Assembly (NCBI GenBank): GCA_040752835.1
Contig: JBFMGG010000007.1
Location: 558,001-622,000 of the forward strand
From: Campylobacterota bacterium
GTDB taxonomy: Bacteria; Campylobacterota; Campylobacteria; Campylobacterales; Sulfurimonadaceae
Length of the DNA stretch: 64,000 nt
Direction: 5' to 3'
In this document: positions 44,827 through 52,234 of the stretch, one piece after another
Numbering within the stretch: the stretch's first letter is position 1
Layout of the letters: every line of letters begins with the position of its first letter
Notes under the pieces: model-generated
Database searches by the model: none
The model's input: only the letters and a program-made list of their open reading frames with translations
What the model was told of the DNA's origin: nothing
Translations under genes and position numbers: made by a program

Positions 44827-46320
44827 TCAATGTCCCCCCATCACCTTCTCGATTTCGGCGGGTTTATCGTGGATGCCGAAGCGGTCGATGATCGTTTTGG
44901 TCGCTTCGTTCTGCCCGACTACCTCGACCTCCTTGCCCATCTTGCGCAGCTTGATCACCGCTTTATCAAGGGCATGGACGGCCGAAATATCCCAGAAGTG
45001 GGCGCGCGTGACGTCGATGATGACGTGTTTGACCGCTTCGCGGTAATCAAACGCATCGGCGAAACGCTCGGCCGAGTTGAAAAACACCTGCCCGACGAAT
45101 TTGTAGACGCGGGTAGAGCTGGTCTCCTCGAACGATTTTTCCCAGTAAAGAAAATGGCTGATCTTGTTCGCAAAAAAGAGCGACGCCAGCAGCACCCCGG
45201 TGAAGACCCCCAGCGCGAGGTTGTGGGTCCAGACCACGACGATGACGGTCGAGAGCATCACGACGTTCGTGGAGAACGGAAGGGTCTTCAGACCTTTGAT
45301 CGAGCCCCAGTTGAACGTCCCGATCGAGACCATGATCATCACCGCCACGAGCGCCGCCATCGGGATGATGGAGATCAGGTCACTCATGAAAACGACCATG
45401 ATGAGCAGCAGCACCCCGGCGATCAGGGTCGAGAGGCGTCCCCGGCCGCCCGATTTGATGTTGATGACCGACTGCCCGATCATCGCGCATCCGGCCATAC
45501 CGCCCATGCACCCGCTGGCGATGTTGGCGACCCCCTGCCCTTTTGCCTCGCGATTTTTGTCGCTGTCGGTGTCGGTCATGTCATCGACGATCGTCGCCGT
45601 CATGAACGATTCGAGCAGCCCCACCGCCGCCAGCGCCGCGGAATAGGGGAAAATGATCGCGAGGGTCTCGAGACTGAGCGGCACTTCGGGCCACAGAAAA
45701 ATGGGGAGGGTGTCGGGGAGCTGCCCCATGTCCCCGACGGTACGCACATCGAGGCCCAGATAGACGGCGACGGCGGTCAATACGACGATCGTCACCAGCG
45801 GCGAGGGGATCAGTTGACCGAGTGTGGGAACATACGGGAACAGGTAGATGATCGCCAGCCCCGCCGCGGTCAGGGCGTAGACATGCCACGTGACGTTGGT
45901 GAGTTCGGGAAGCTGCGCCATGAAGATCAGAATCGCCAGCGCGTTCACGAACCCGATCACGACGGTGCGGGAGACGAAGCTCATCAGCATTCCCAGCTTC
46001 AGATACCCCGCCAGGATCTGCAAAACTCCCGTAAGGATCGTCGCGGCCAGCAGATACTGCAGCCCGTGTTCTTTGACCAGCGTCACCATCAAGAGAGCCA
46101 TCGCCCCAGTGGCGGCCGAGATCATCCCGGCACGACCGCCAACGAACGCGATCACCGTCGCGATACAAAACGAGGCGTAGAGCCCCACCTTCGGATCGAC
46201 CCCCGCGATGATCGAAAAGGCGATCGATTCGGGGATGAGCGCCAGGGCGACGACGATCCCGGCGAGGATATCGGCGCGGATATTGCCGAACCACTCCTCT
46301 TTTTTTGACAACAAAAGCAT
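44827..46320 (-). CDS. SulP-family anion transporter with STAS domain (first copy)
   Basis: The 497-residue inner-membrane protein has the SulP core ([28 protein letters not shown]) and a C-terminal STAS domain (about 405-495). SulP proteins carry sulfate, bicarbonate or related anions. The frame extends to 46410; ATG at 46320 is preferred since AAGGA lies 5 bases upstream. It is divergent from mnmH. The substrate cannot be read from sequence; bicarbonate would suit an autotroph, sulfate or selenate would suit the neighbours. Confidence 0.9.
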
Positions 46321-46507
46321 CATTTTCCTTTGTTCCAATACTTTCTCAACCCAATTAACATTCAGGAAGCTTTGCAGATGAAAGACGCAGTGAGAAGACG
46401 GAGATTTCACGCCATTTTAGCAGCCGTTGGATAAAGACGCGTTAAAAATAGCGGTAAACCCTGCGACTCATGCCCCCCTCAGCCGCCGAGTGATACAATT
46501 ACGCACC

Positions 46508-47521
46508 ATGCAAACCATACCGATTGAAACGTTTTTAGAAACGCTTGACACCTACGATCTCGTGATCGATGCCCGCAGTCCGCGCGAATACCACGAATCC
46601 CATGTTCCGGGTGCCCGCAATTTTTACGCCCTGAGCGACGAGGAACACCGGATCGTCGGAACCCTCTACAAACAGGTCTCAGCGTTCGAGGCACGGGTGC
46701 AGGGGGCCTCGTACGTCTGTGTCAACGCCTCGAACCATATCAAGGAACTCTATCCCGCGTTCACCCCGAATTCCAAGATCGCCATCTACTGCGCCCGGGG
46801 AGGGATGCGTTCCTCTTCCCTTTCGACCATTTTTTCGAGTATCGGCTACCGTATCGACCGCATCAAAGGGGGCTACAAACAATACCGCCGATACGTGGTC
46901 GACTATCTCGATGCCCTCCCCCCGATCCGCTTCATCACCCTCTCGGGACATACGGGATGCGGCAAAAGCGAACTCCTCGGAGGCCTCGAAAACGTCCTCG
47001 ACCTCGAAAAAATGGCCAACCATTACGGCTCGGTTTTCGGTGACGTCGGGGGGTGCCAGCCCAGCCAAAAAGAGTTTCAAAACCGTCTCGTGCACGGTTA
47101 CCGCGCCCTCGATCCCCGCAGACGCGCTTTTGTCGAGTCCGAGAGCAAACGGATCGGCCGGCTCACCCTCTCGGCCGCGATTCACGATCAGATGATGCAC
47201 GGGTTCCGCGTCGAAATCACCGCTCCGCTGGATCAGCGGGTCAAGCGGATCATGCGGATGTACGACCGGATGGACGGGGCTTTTTTCCGTGAACGGATGG
47301 AGCGTATCTCCCCGTATATCAGCCGTGAGGACAAAGCGGCCGCATTGTGCGCGTTCGACAACGGCGATCTGCCCCGCGTCGCTGAAATACTCCTCGTGCA
47401 CTATTACGACAAAGTCTACAAAAGATCCCACAAACCCGATCTCACGCTTCACAACGACGATCCGGCGCAAACCGTTCGGACCCTTGCCGAACTGCAGCGC
47501 GAACTGGACAGTCGCGCATGA
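46508..47521 (+). CDS. mnmH: tRNA 2-selenouridine synthase (MnmH/SelU/YbbB)
   Basis: The 337-residue enzyme replaces sulfur by selenium in 2-thiouridine of tRNA wobble bases, using selenophosphate. It has an N-terminal rhodanese domain with the catalytic Cys in YCARGGMRSSS (about residue 97) and a C-terminal P-loop domain (SGHTGCGKSELLGGLE near 145). The frame extends upstream to 46427, but ATG at 46508 fits family N-termini. No clear ribosome-binding site is seen. It overlaps selD by 4 bases. Confidence 0.94.
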   Translation: MQTIPIETFLETLDTYDLVIDARSPREYHESHVPGARNFYALSDEEHRIVGTLYKQVSAFEARVQGASYVCVNASNHIKELYPAFTPNSKIAIYCARGGMRSSSLSTIFSSIGYRIDRIKGGYKQYRRYVVDYLDALPPIRFITLSGHTGCGKSELLGGLENVLDLEKMANHYGSVFGDVGGCQPSQKEFQNRLVHGYRALDPRRRAFVESESKRIGRLTLSAAIHDQMMHGFRVEITAPLDQRVKRIMRMYDRMDGAFFRERMERISPYISREDKAAALCAFDNGDLPRVAEILLVHYYDKVYKRSHKPDLTLHNDDPAQTVRTLAELQRELDSRA

Positions 47522-48555
47522 TGAACACCGACGCCAAACTGACCAAATACGTCCGCGCCTCGGGATGTGCGGCCAAACTCTCTCCCGGCTCGCTCGGCGA
47601 CGTCACCTGCCGTCTCGTGTCGTTTCACAAAGACCTTCTTGTCGGATTCGAAGGGAACGAAGACGCGGGGGTATTCCGGATCGACGATACAAACGCGATA
47701 GTGCAGACGCTTGATTTCATCACCCCCGTCGTCGACGACCCGTTCGTCTACGGCCAGATCGCGGCGGCCAATTCGCTCAGCGACGTCTTCGCGATGGGAG
47801 GCGATCCCAAAACGGCCCTCAACATCGTCGGGTTCGACGGCAAGAACCACACGACCGAGATCCTGAGCGAGATCCTTCGGGGCGGCCAGAGCAAGGTCGC
47901 CGAGTGCGGCGCGGTGATCGTCGGGGGGCACACGATCGAAACCCCCGAAATGATCTACGGCCTCTCGTGTACGGGATTCGTCCACCCACAGCGGATCTTG
48001 CGCAACAACGCCGCCCGGGAGGGGGACCTGATCGTCCTGACCAAACCGCTGGGAGTGGGAATCCTCGTCACCGCGATCAAAGCCGATCTTCTCGATGCCG
48101 CCGCCGCGATGCGGGTCGCCGAATCGATGCGCACCCTTAACTACAAAGCTTCCCTCATCGCACGCGAATGCGACGCGCATGCTTGCACCGACGTTACGGG
48201 GTTCGGATTTTTGGGGCACCTGTACGAGATGTGCACCCCCTCCACCTCGATCGAGGTGGAGAGTTCATCCGTCCCCTTTTTCCCCGAAGCGCTTCCGATG
48301 GCGTCGATGGGAATCATCCCCGCGGGGAGCTACGCGAACCAAGAGTACCTCGGTTCCAAGGTCCGTTTTACACGCGACATCGGCGCGGACCGTGAAATGC
48401 TCCTCTTCGATGCCCAAACCTCCGGGGGGCTGCTGATCGGGGCAAGCCCCGAAAATGCGCGCGCCATCACCCGGCGGTGCCGTGACGAAGGGATCGACGC
48501 CGCCATCGTCGCGCAGGTGGTCGCCAGACGCGATGCCGATATTTTCGTAGGATAG
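47518..48555 (+). CDS. selD: Selenide, water dikinase (selenophosphate synthetase)
   Basis: The 345-residue enzyme makes selenophosphate from selenide and ATP. The catalytic Cys and Lys are seen in GCAAKLSPG near residue 20; the position is Cys, not selenocysteine, and the second Cys of the E. coli GCGCK motif is Ala. The AIR-synthase-like ATP motifs (TLDFITPVVDDPF, AANSLSDVFAMGG) are intact. It feeds MnmH directly upstream; no selA or selB is in the window. Confidence 0.96.
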   Translation: MMNTDAKLTKYVRASGCAAKLSPGSLGDVTCRLVSFHKDLLVGFEGNEDAGVFRIDDTNAIVQTLDFITPVVDDPFVYGQIAAANSLSDVFAMGGDPKTALNIVGFDGKNHTTEILSEILRGGQSKVAECGAVIVGGHTIETPEMIYGLSCTGFVHPQRILRNNAAREGDLIVLTKPLGVGILVTAIKADLLDAAAAMRVAESMRTLNYKASLIARECDAHACTDVTGFGFLGHLYEMCTPSTSIEVESSSVPFFPEALPMASMGIIPAGSYANQEYLGSKVRFTRDIGADREMLLFDAQTSGGLLIGASPENARAITRRCRDEGIDAAIVAQVVARRDADIFVG

Positions 48556-48558
48556 ACC

Positions 48559-49641
48559 ATGACCCGACGTACCTTCATCACCCATACCGCTGCCATCGGC
48601 ACCCTCTGGATCACCCCATCCTTCGGCGACGAGACCTCCTCCGCGTCTGCAGGATACGCCCTCTATGATATCCTCTGGAGCTTCGACCTCTCCCGCCACA
48701 CCGGCGAAACTTCCCTGTGGATCCCGCTCCCCTCCGACATCGGCGGATTCCAGAACGTCCTCAAAACGGGATGGCGCACCGACGCGGCGGAGTGTTTTGA
48801 AAGTGCCCGAAACCGTGACGCGGCACGAACCCTCTTCGCACACTGGGAGAAAAACGCCCCCGCCAAAACGCTCGAACTGCGCTTGAGTATTGCGCTGCGG
48901 GACCGTCGCTGTGATTTCCGTCCCCGGCGGATCTGTCCCGAAGCCGCCCGGGCGGCCCGAGCCTTTCTCTCCCCATCGGCGCATATTCCGACCGACGGAG
49001 CCGTCGCCCGCATCGCCACCGCCATCGTCGGGCGTGAAAAAGACCCCCTCAAAAAGGCTCGCCGCATCTACGACTGGATCGTTGCAAACAGTTACCGCGA
49101 CGAAAGCGTACGCGGCTGCGGCACGGGGAGCCCGAATGCAATGCTCGCCGAACTCGAAAAAAACGGCCGCATGGGGGGAAAATGCCTCGACATGTCGGCC
49201 CTGTGCGTCGCGCTGATGCGTGCATCGGGGATCCCCGCCCGCGAGGTGACCGGGATCCGGGTGGGGCCCTCACGCCTCTCCGGCGCATTCGGTGCCGGAG
49301 AAGAGATCACCAAAGCCCAGCACTGCAAGGTGGAGTTTTTCACCCCTTCCCACGGGTGGATCCCCTGCGATCCCGCCGACATCACCAAACTCGTCCTCAA
49401 AGAGGGGATCGAGAAAACCTCCCCCCGTGCACGCGAACTCTCGAACCTATTTTTCGGCTTCTGGGAGAACAACTGGATGGCCCTCAACCACGCCCGCGAT
49501 TTCGATCTCTATCCGGCCAATTCGCAGGGGAACCTCGATTCTTTCGGCTACCCTTATGCCGAAGTTGAGGGGGAATACCTCGATCCCTTCGACCCTGCCG
49601 CCTACCGCTACGCGATCCGATCGCTCAAAGGACTCATGTGA
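48559..49641 (+). CDS. Exported transglutaminase-like protein
   Basis: The 360-residue protein begins with MTRRTFI and a hydrophobic stretch, a Tat-like signal, so it is probably periplasmic. The transglutaminase core has Cys in GGKCLDMSALCVALMRASG (about residue 215), His in AQHCKVEFF and Asp in CDPAD, giving a complete triad. Such proteins are usually cysteine proteases or amidases. It starts 3 bases after selD and its stop overlaps the next start, so it is part of this operon. Its role with selenium genes is unknown. Confidence 0.85.
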   Translation: MTRRTFITHTAAIGTLWITPSFGDETSSASAGYALYDILWSFDLSRHTGETSLWIPLPSDIGGFQNVLKTGWRTDAAECFESARNRDAARTLFAHWEKNAPAKTLELRLSIALRDRRCDFRPRRICPEAARAARAFLSPSAHIPTDGAVARIATAIVGREKDPLKKARRIYDWIVANSYRDESVRGCGTGSPNAMLAELEKNGRMGGKCLDMSALCVALMRASGIPAREVTGIRVGPSRLSGAFGAGEEITKAQHCKVEFFTPSHGWIPCDPADITKLVLKEGIEKTSPRARELSNLFFGFWENNWMALNHARDFDLYPANSQGNLDSFGYPYAEVEGEYLDPFDPAAYRYAIRSLKGLM

Positions 49642-50249
49642 TCCTTGACTGCCGCGACATGGAGTGCCCCCGCCCGGTGCTGGAAACCAAAAAAGCGCTC
49701 GATTCCCTCCCTGAAGACGCAACGCTGACCGTCGAGGTCAATACCCTCTCGGGGCGGGAAAACTGTAAACGTTTCGCCCTCTCTCAACACTGCACCTATA
49801 CGGAAGAGGATCTCGGCAACGGTGCGACCCGCCTCGTCATTCTCAAAGGAAAAGGCTACGTCGAAAAGCCCGGGGAGGAGAACCCCCTGGATGCCATGAT
49901 CGTCCAGGAGCGGCGCAGCGCGGTCCTGGTCCTCTCCGGCGCTTTCGTCACGGCGCTCCTTTCTGCCTCGTGCTGCCTCGTTCCGACGCTCTTCATCCTC
50001 TTCGGCGTCTCGTTTGCGGGAGTCATCAACGTCGCCGCGCTCGAGCCGTACCGATGGATTTTCACCCTTGCGGCCGTGGGGATGCTCTCGTTCGGCTTTT
50101 ACCGCATGGTGATCCGCAAGCAGATCGAATGCGACTGCGAACCCAGTCTGGCTTCCAGGGCGCTCAAAACGCTCTTTTGGCTGTTGTTCCTCCTGACCCT
50201 CGCCGTATTGTTCTATCCCTACTACGAAGGATGGCTATGGCAAGAGTGA
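49638..50249 (+). CDS. TusA-like domain fused to a MerT-like membrane domain
   Basis: Residues 1-75 are a TusA/SirA-type sulfur carrier with the active Cys in DMECPRPVLETKKAL (CPxP). Residues about 93-203 are a MerT-like membrane protein: SASCCLVPTLFILFG (Cys pair in helix 1), the ALEPYRWIF motif, and a cytoplasmic CDC pair (IECDCEP) before the last helix. Start is GTG 49638, overlapping the upstream stop. The fusion places a persulfide/selenide carrier on the cytoplasmic side of a thiol-lined channel. I know of no described protein with this layout. Three helices are predicted. Confidence 0.88.
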   Translation: MILDCRDMECPRPVLETKKALDSLPEDATLTVEVNTLSGRENCKRFALSQHCTYTEEDLGNGATRLVILKGKGYVEKPGEENPLDAMIVQERRSAVLVLSGAFVTALLSASCCLVPTLFILFGVSFAGVINVAALEPYRWIFTLAAVGMLSFGFYRMVIRKQIECDCEPSLASRALKTLFWLLFLLTLAVLFYPYYEGWLWQE

Positions 50250-50503
50250 TCCTCATTCTCTCGCTGTTCGCCGTTTTCGTCGGTGCACGCGAATGGACGC
50301 TGCGAATCACGGGGATGCACTGCATCGCCTGCACCCTTGCCGTCAAAAAGGCACTGATGGGGATCCCCGGGGTCCGCAGTGCAAAAGTCTCGTTCAAAAA
50401 CGAAACCGCCCTTGTCGACGCACAGGAAAACGTCACCCTCGAGACGATGCAAAACGCCGTAGCGCGAACCGGATACACCATCACCTCTGCCGCTTCGAAA
50501 TAA
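50237..50503 (+). CDS. MerP-like periplasmic HMA protein
   Basis: The 88-residue protein has a signal peptide (ARVILILSLFAVFVGA) and an HMA domain with the CxxC in GMHCIACTLAVKKAL, as in MerP. ATG at 50237 is chosen because GAAGG abuts the earlier ATG at 50231. It overlaps the MerT-like gene by 13 bases, so the two are co-translated and probably pass a thiol-bound ion from periplasm to membrane. No merA, merR or merB is nearby. Confidence 0.88.
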   Translation: MARVILILSLFAVFVGAREWTLRITGMHCIACTLAVKKALMGIPGVRSAKVSFKNETALVDAQENVTLETMQNAVARTGYTITSAASK

Positions 50504-50563
50504 CGTTTCAGCGCAAAAAAGTGCTACACTACGCGCATCGATTTTCACAAGGACTCTTTTTTC

Positions 50564-52234
50564 ATGTTGCGCTCTATCCACGACTCGCTGGAGCCGAAAC
50601 TTATCACCCTCTTCAAACGACAGGGGTACAACCGCTCCGATTTTGTCGCCGACGCGATTGCGGGGCTCTCTGTTGCCATCGTCGCCCTCCCGCTGGCCAT
50701 GGCGATCGCGATCGCTTCGAACCTTCCCCCCGAGAGAGGCCTATTTACCGCCATCGTCGCCGGTTTTTTGATCTCGGCCCACGGCGGCAGCCGCTACCAG
50801 ATCGGCGGCCCCACGGCAGCTTTCATCGTCACCGTCGCCACCGTCGCGATGAAACACGGCTACGAGGGGCTGGTACTCGCAACCATCATGGCGGGGGGTA
50901 CCCTTGCGCTGATGGCTTTTTTACGGGCCGGAGAACTGATCAAATTCATCCCCTATCCCGTCATCGTAGGATTTACTTCGGGGATCGCCCTTCTCATCGC
51001 TTTTTCGCAGATCCGCGATTTTTTCGGTCTGCACGTCGACACCGTACCACCCGATTTCATCGACAAACTCACCCTCTATCTTGCCCATCTGCACGAAACC
51101 AACCTCGCGGCGGTACTCCTTGCGACGGCATCGATCGGCGTGATTCTTCTTGCCAAGCGTTATACTCCCCGCATCCCCGGTCCCATCCTCGTCGTCATCC
51201 TCTCGGCCTCGGCTGTCTGGGCGCTGAACATCCCCGTCGAAACGATCGAAAGCCGGTTCGGTTCGATCCCCTCGATGCTGCCAAGCCCCGTATGGCCCGA
51301 CATCACCTTTGAAAAGCTCCGGTTGCTCCTCCCCGATGCGATCACGATCGCGACGCTTGCGGCCATCGAATCGCTTCTCTCGGCCGTCGTCGCCGACGGA
51401 ATGACCGGTACGCGTCACAAACCCAATGCCGAGCTCCTTGGACAGGGGGTGGCCAACGTCGCATCGGGGATCTTCGGCGGCCTCCCCGCCACGGGAGCAA
51501 TCGCCCGTACCGCGACCAATATCAAAGCGGGGGCCAAAAGCCCGGTTGCGGGAATGATGCACGCGGTATGGCTTTTTGCGTTCATGCTGCTGCTCGCCCC
51601 GCTGATCGTGAAGGTTCCCCTTGCGGCCCTCGCCGCGATCCTCATGGTCGTCGCATGGAACATGTCCGAGATCAAACACGTCCGGGAGATCATGAAAGCC
51701 CCGAAAGCCGATCGGATCGTCCTGATCACCACCTTTGCGCTGACGGTACTCGTCGATCTGAATTTCGCGATCCAGGCTGGAATCGCCCTCGCATCGATTC
51801 TGTTCATCGATTCGATGATGAAATCGACCCAGATCAAAGCAGTCCGGAACGAGGAGGACGACCCCGATTCCACGGCCAACAAAACGATCCCCCCCGGCGT
51901 CGAAGTCTATGAAATCGACGGCCCTCTTTTCTTCGGCGTCGCCGAAAAACTGGTCGATACCCTGCTGCTGTTCGAAAAGCCGCCGAAAGTGTTCATCCTC
52001 CGGATGCGCCACGTCCCCCTTATCGATGCGGCGGGACTGCATGCGCTCGAAGTGGTTCAGGAGCGGCTCAGCCACCACGGCACCCGACTTATCCTCTCTG
52101 GGGTCAACCCGCAGGTAAGACGGTTCATCGCCCTCTCGGATTTGAACGTCAAAATCGGTTCTGAAAACATCGTCGACCATATCGACAAGGCCATCCTCAG
52201 AGCCTCCGTCTTTCTGATGCCCAAAGAGGGCTGA
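50564..52234 (+). CDS. SulP-family anion transporter with STAS domain (second copy)
   Basis: The 556-residue protein has the SulP signature near the N-terminus (DAIAGLSVAIVALPLAMAIAIA), about 10-12 helices and a C-terminal STAS domain (about 430-545; VPLIDAAGLHALE). It follows merP after 60 bases in the same direction, and could be expressed with the selenium cluster. It differs in length and sequence from the copy at 44827-46320. The substrate is unknown. Confidence 0.9.
   Translation: MLRSIHDSLEPKLITLFKRQGYNRSDFVADAIAGLSVAIVALPLAMAIAIASNLPPERGLFTAIVAGFLISAHGGSRYQIGGPTAAFIVTVATVAMKHGYEGLVLATIMAGGTLALMAFLRAGELIKFIPYPVIVGFTSGIALLIAFSQIRDFFGLHVDTVPPDFIDKLTLYLAHLHETNLAAVLLATASIGVILLAKRYTPRIPGPILVVILSASAVWALNIPVETIESRFGSIPSMLPSPVWPDITFEKLRLLLPDAITIATLAAIESLLSAVVADGMTGTRHKPNAELLGQGVANVASGIFGGLPATGAIARTATNIKAGAKSPVAGMMHAVWLFAFMLLLAPLIVKVPLAALAAILMVVAWNMSEIKHVREIMKAPKADRIVLITTFALTVLVDLNFAIQAGIALASILFIDSMMKSTQIKAVRNEEDDPDSTANKTIPPGVEVYEIDGPLFFGVAEKLVDTLLLFEKPPKVFILRMRHVPLIDAAGLHALEVVQERLSHHGTRLILSGVNPQVRRFIALSDLNVKIGSENIVDHIDKAILRASVFLMPKEG

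Follow-up and report, generated by a model that had tools for sequence, protein, structure and literature searches.

No dedicated selenium transporter is known, according to papers of 2024 (PMC11097638) and 2026 (PMC13188914), and genes for YedE, YedF, LysR_Se, DUF3343 and SirA-like proteins have been reported near selD, the gene for selenophosphate synthase (PMC5322559, PMC2432076, PMC2276186). In the thiosulfate uptake system YeeE-YeeD (TsuA-TsuB), a TusA-like protein was found by experiment to be needed by the chalcogen transporter, to which it is fused in some bacteria (PMC11073785). YedE and YedF (FdhT and FdhU) are predicted to act in selenium transport or trafficking. The MerT/MerP pair of mercury resistance (mer) operons moves thiol-bound Hg(II) inward. 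Here we describe an operon in a window of 64,000 nucleotides from a Campylobacterota bacterium (contig JBFMGG010000007.1, positions 558,001 to 622,000; genome G000, 2.13 Mb, of the same genus as Sulfuricurvum sp. PD_MW2, G133), in which mnmH and selD are followed by genes for an exported transglutaminase-fold protein (TG), a TusA-MerT fusion and a MerP-like protein. The triad TG-(TusA-)MerT-MerP is very probably linked to selenium use, and it is fairly probable that it serves as a module supplying selenium from the periplasm to SelD.

The region in question holds six genes, all of them intact and with identities that are supported by Pfam and NCBIfam models:

46508..47521, + strand: mnmH (selU/ybbB), tRNA 2-selenouridine synthase; NCBIfam NF008750 348 bits (cut-off 241), TIGR03167 307 bits (cut-off 219.75)
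47518..48555, + strand: selD, selenophosphate synthase, Cys form (ASGCAAKL); TIGR00476 363 bits (cut-off 125)
48559..49641, + strand: TG, exported transglutaminase-fold protein with a twin-arginine motif; PF01841 72 bits
49638..50249, + strand: TusA-MerT fusion with a GTG start; PF01206 and PF02411
50237..50503, + strand: MerP-like periplasmic HMA protein with a signal peptide and the motif GMHCIACT; PF00403 52.7 bits
50564..52234, + strand: SulP-family anion transporter with a STAS domain; PF00916 282 bits

The first two genes overlap by 4 bases, TG starts after a gap of 3 bases, the fusion and MerP genes each overlap their predecessor (by 4 and 13 bases, respectively), and the SulP gene follows after 60 bases; coordinates and intact frames agree with the tight packing of the first five genes, and with the position of SulP, that were described in the first-pass annotation. 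MnmH and SelD both score above their NCBIfam equivalog cut-offs, and MnmH carries the rhodanese-type Cys (CARGGMRS) and the P-loop (GHTGCGKS). Scans for promoters and terminators gave a signal no better than in shuffled sequences, and no match was found in phage records.

The operon resembles the described systems only in part. Like YeeE-YeeD, it has a TusA-fold protein with a CPxP motif that is coupled or fused to a membrane transporter, in that case one for chalcogens, but the membrane part of the triad is of the MerT type (PF02411, three helices), is linked to selD and is accompanied by a periplasmic carrier and TG. The coupling of TusA to a transporter thus has a precedent (PMC11073785), which speaks in favour of the supply reading. 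YedF has an N-terminal TusA domain of the same type and is likewise found beside selD, but the fusion has MerT where YedF has its DsrE half; residues 3-90 of the fusion align to positions 1-81 of the YedF model TIGR03527 with 51.7 against 110 bits, which misses the cut-off, and YedE was found neither in the window genome nor in any of the 11 fusion genomes that were tested for it. Further MerT or HMA relatives from selenium-using bacteria are the MerT/CopZ fusion-like selenoprotein (NF045683) and the UxxU metal-binding (seleno)protein (NF041115), but these bear selenocysteine (Sec), whereas the window proteins are all in the Cys form and score far below the respective cut-offs. Our searches of PMC5322559, PMC2432076, PMC2276186 and the paper on the Epsilonproteobacteria selenoproteome (PMC4607533) turned up neither the triad nor a TG described as a selenium gene, in a literature of which subscription journals were sparsely covered. 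The sole mention of a transglutaminase in the selenium genomics paper PMC5322559 stands in a STRING row and concerns a different gene, from Slackia, and for HI1048 of Haemophilus influenzae the description goes no further than transglutaminase family protein (PMC3877243).

TG keeps almost exclusively to genomes with selD, as would be expected of a part of a dedicated selenium import system. In a sample of 298 Campylobacterota genomes, a strong TG match (E below 1e-85) is present in 88 genomes and selD in 223; the 88 all carry selD as well, and no strong TG turns up in the 75 genomes that lack selD (Fisher 3e-14, a value inflated by kinship). Counted by genus, all 20 genera with TG fall within the 39 with selD, out of 58 (P ~4e-5). 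The tie to mnmH is loose, as this gene is found in 60 of the 88 strong-TG genomes. In the Pasteurellaceae, where 81 of 121 genomes have TG and 114 have selD, TG is missing from each of the seven selD-less genomes (P ~3e-4). One genome of this family (G365) has a selD that is split into two pieces and contains an in-frame stop, together with a TG that has lost residues 117-256, including the region of the catalytic Cys, and a MerT shortened by an internal deletion; here selD and the triad have decayed together. Elsewhere, selD accompanies TG in 31 of 33 carriers, the two exceptions being TG-only metagenome-assembled genomes, one of them of 1.3 Mb.

The gene neighbourhoods lead in the same direction. 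Among about 47 Campylobacterota genomes that were compared, 27, belonging to 12 genera, have TG within 10 kb of selD, where about 0.5 would be expected, and in these 27 the distance is mostly within 1.5 kb, with the two genes in line or divergent. Nautiliaceae-like genomes show the arrangement YedF-TG-TusA-MerT-HMA-DsrE-selD, and selA-selB are nearby. Outside this phylum, a TG without MerT adjoins selD in Terrarubrum, Phyllobacterium, Sinorhizobium (including S. meliloti 1021, where TG lies beside selD on pSymA), Rhizobium and Cupriavidus, often within a selA-fdhE-fdnGHI cluster. It abuts selB-selA-fdhE in Tepidiphilus, and in Herminiimonas it is located between selA-selB and a Sec-containing fdhG (formate dehydrogenase alpha), the frame of which continues through a TGA at the position usual for selenocysteine. 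Since TG-only sequences separate from a TG-with-MerT clade in the TG tree, the selenium link is present on both sides of that tree. TG is the most widely selenium-linked part of the triad.

Some further features of these neighbourhoods may be recorded. In loci L034-L036 (c9 family), a DsrE/TusD-like gene stands by itself between HMA and selD (e.g. L036 8645-9001), and the cluster thereby holds both halves of YedF, with TusA fused to MerT and DsrE separate, in addition to a complete YedF. Many Campylobacterota and Pasteurellaceae, some with an adjacent triad, have a selD with one in-frame TGA, as is expected of a Sec-containing SelD (G240, G058, G237, G224, G004, G006, G223 and many others). 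Immediately behind the triad of L125, a Sec formate dehydrogenase was considered as well but found unsupported, as the reading frames do not join.

The conserved unit is the triad, whereas mnmH and selD are its partners in the window operon. A scan of the genome collection with a TG profile gave 80 loci from Campylobacterota, Pasteurellaceae, Enterobacterales, Wohlfahrtiimonas, Alcaligenaceae and other Proteobacteria. Directly after TG, MerT is present in 72 of these and HMA in 70, and the order TG-MerT-HMA recurs in 70 of the 80 loci and in many families; triads are found in Campylobacterota, Pasteurellaceae, Enterobacterales and Alcaligenaceae. When MerT or TusA-MerT is taken as the starting point in Campylobacterota, TG nearly always directly precedes it and HMA follows, while the presence of TusA and the distance to selD vary, and the TGs of Campylobacteraceae, which were sampled separately, are likewise accompanied by MerT and HMA. 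The full order mnmH-selD-TG-TusA-MerT-HMA is identical in six further, related genomes (L081-L086). The annotation from which this work started had proposed a selenium operon with Mer-like parts; this holds, including the selenium link itself (selD in 88/88 strong-TG genomes), but the core is both narrower and of wider occurrence than was supposed, being TG-MerT-MerP, with mnmH exchangeable for selA/selB and TusA optional. Its inclusion of SulP did not survive the comparison: the gene accompanies the unit in just 2 of 7 related operons, those of the window and L081, is absent from L082-L086, and is probably incidental and outside the unit. A second SulP-family gene lies just upstream in the window (44827-46410, - strand), and SulP genes thus flank the selenium operon on both sides.

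It could be argued that TG is unrelated to the MerT/MerP pair, itself diverged, and that these genes are merely neighbours that ended up in a selenium operon by chance, and it is true that outside the Campylobacterota most single loci have no selenium neighbour. However, this is contradicted by the triad order in 70 of 80 loci, the strict dependence on selD and the independent linkage of TG to selD in other classes, and such a coincidence is very improbable.

The TG protein begins with a twin-arginine motif, from which export by the twin-arginine translocation (Tat) pathway is predicted. Its catalytic triad consists of C209, H255 and D271, and these residues, together with two additional invariant cysteines, C187 and C256, are kept in at least 158 of 159 homologues. 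The predicted structure is of high confidence (predicted local distance difference test score 91) and similar to 3ISR and to the TgpA periplasmic domain. While the catalytic fold is common to TG and bacterial proteins of the TgpA/3ISR type, TG differs from these by the two further invariant Cys, Tat export and the selenium linkage, and no NCBIfam model matches the TG of the window. The extra cysteines are not a hallmark of selenium-linked members only, since TGs of Rhodobacterales that lie away from selenium genes also have them. Two deviating cases were noted: a diverged TG in L185 (5410; G062, a genome with selD) lacks the catalytic Cys and both other Cys, and L176 (5640-8900) has a tandem TG pair ahead of MerT and HMA, of which the first copy is diverged and has no twin-arginine start.

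In the fusion protein, the TusA domain covers residues 2-70 and the MerT domain residues 99-199, both above their Pfam gathering scores (for PF02411, 51.6 bits with a cut-off of 32.9). The TusA domain has the motif CPRP, in agreement with CPxP, and in Foldseek searches it matches SirA/TusA structures and, over about 73 residues and with the TusA half only, the YeeE-YeeD thiosulfate uptake complex (8k1r). The MerT half is composed of three hydrophobic helices, with a CC pair in helix 1 and a loop Cys that are both invariant among homologues, and the HMA protein combines a signal peptide with a GMxCxxCT motif that is invariant in 12 homologues. Because positive charges precede helix 1 and occur in the second loop, the N-terminal TusA domain is predicted to reside in the cytoplasm, which agrees with the known topology of MerT. 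Fusion to TusA is optional for MerT and is seen only in some Campylobacterota. Several independent TusA-MerT fusions would have added to the evidence, but this was abandoned: the best tree needs two changes, and a single origin is not rejected (p 0.12).

The features held in common with mer operons, namely a PF02411 domain with CC in helix 1 and a cytoplasmic-loop Cys, a periplasmic HMA protein with CxxC, and adjacency of the two genes, raise the question whether the pair imports Hg(II) or another soft metal, to be precipitated by selenide, or else protects selenium enzymes. MerT and HMA domains above the Pfam cut-offs, with CC, loop Cys and CxxC all kept, are compatible with this. The triad differs from mer operons, however, in that MerA and a mercury-type MerR are missing, TG is placed ahead, TusA is sometimes fused, the genes follow selD, and the scores stay below the mercury equivalogs (53 against 150 bits for NF010314 and 44 against 92.55 bits for TIGR02052). 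MerA is absent from the window genome and is found above cut-off in only 2 of the 298 Campylobacterota genomes, in both of which it lies at a great distance from the fusion or on a different contig, and none of 64 TG genomes has a mercury-type MerR above cut-off. The proposal that the genes would co-occur with selD and mnmH and be independent of merA and merR thus came out as predicted (88/88 selD; MerA 2/298; MerR 0/64). As, moreover, the TG of Alpha- and Betaproteobacteria sits at selenium genes without any Mer part, a function in mercury or soft-metal handling is improbable.

The point in selenium metabolism at which the triad acts is suggested by a comparison within Sulfuricurvum. The only SelB match in the window genome, with 187 bits against a cut-off of 242.25, is at the level of elongation factors, and since no SelB above cut-off is present, MnmH is the organism's only route of selenium use. 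In its congener G133, the triad adjoins selA and selB and MnmH is missing, and across loci mnmH and selA/selB are interchangeable as partners of the triad. Because the triad is kept while the end use changes between tRNA selenation and selenocysteine, it probably acts upstream, between the outside and SelD, on the supply to the latter. The same comparison bears on the idea that the module matures exported selenium or molybdenum enzymes, such as formate dehydrogenase and dimethyl sulfoxide (DMSO) reductase, instead of supplying SelD. This idea can draw on the position of TG, which adjoins fdhGHI-fdhE in Alpha- and Betaproteobacteria. In H. influenzae, likewise, the triad (L131, 3610-8641) is divergent and next to genes of a dmsABC-type DMSO reductase, not selenium genes; its TG is probably HI1048. 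However, the window genome is without SelB and is expected to make no selenoproteins, and still keeps the triad in an mnmH-selD operon, as is likewise seen for G074, so that a role in enzyme maturation has little probability.

For the supply reading, a sequence of steps can be envisaged. In the periplasm, the Tat-exported TG would free or bind a selenium compound that is organic or thiol-bound, possibly by amide hydrolysis or thiol exchange at the catalytic Cys in conjunction with the two other invariant Cys. The CxxC protein of the MerP type may then take the selenium as a bis-thiolate S-Se-S, in analogy to the S-Hg-S form in which MerP holds mercury, after which the CC/Cys path of the MerT-like part would carry it across the membrane. 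The CPxP cysteine of TusA, predicted to be cytoplasmic, could accept it as a perselenide and pass it on to SelD, the product of which would serve MnmH in the window genome and SelA/SelB elsewhere. The import direction, the cargo and the chemistry of TG proposed here appear reasonably probable; that all of this forms one dedicated pathway, from a TG that draws on thiol-bound or organic selenium through a MerP/MerT bis-thiolate relay to a TusA perselenide carrier feeding SelD, is possible, at somewhat less than an even chance.

The main rival runs in the opposite direction, with the module exporting or quenching excess or toxic reduced selenium in cells that use selenium. The gene linkage fits this as well, many selD genomes do without the module, and export was raised for YedE by Lin et al. 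(PMC5322559). A periplasmic CxxC carrier combined with a cytoplasmic TusA acceptor suits import better, though, as does the inward movement for which MerT/MerP are known, and a defence against toxicity need not track selD so strictly; export is therefore unlikely, if less so than the other alternatives.

Several observations also weigh against the supply of selenium to SelD by the triad. In the Campylobacterota sample, 135 of the 223 selD genomes have no triad, which is thus not obligatory, and the relatedness of the sampled organisms inflates the Fisher value given above. The MerT-bearing triads of Gammaproteobacteria and Campylobacter are mostly not adjacent to selD, TG without MerT in Alpha- and Betaproteobacteria implies that the enzyme does not need the transporter, and the plasmid-borne TGs of Rhodobacterales (L188, L189, L191, L192) possess all three invariant Cys and no selenium neighbours. 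The presence of YedE shows no relation to that of the triad, positive or negative (13/41 vs 10/39), and the notion that the two are mutual alternatives was rejected.

If the triad does supply selenium to SelD, it would become the first known system dedicated to selenium uptake, many genes in Campylobacterota, Pasteurellaceae and Enterobacterales that are annotated as the "mercuric transporter" MerT would not be for mercury, and an uncharacterised transglutaminase family would gain a role. The triad is a conserved and testable candidate for specific selenium uptake, and tractable organisms are available: Sinorhizobium meliloti 1021 has the TG next to selD, and the TG of Haemophilus influenzae Rd is probably the uncharacterised HI1048.

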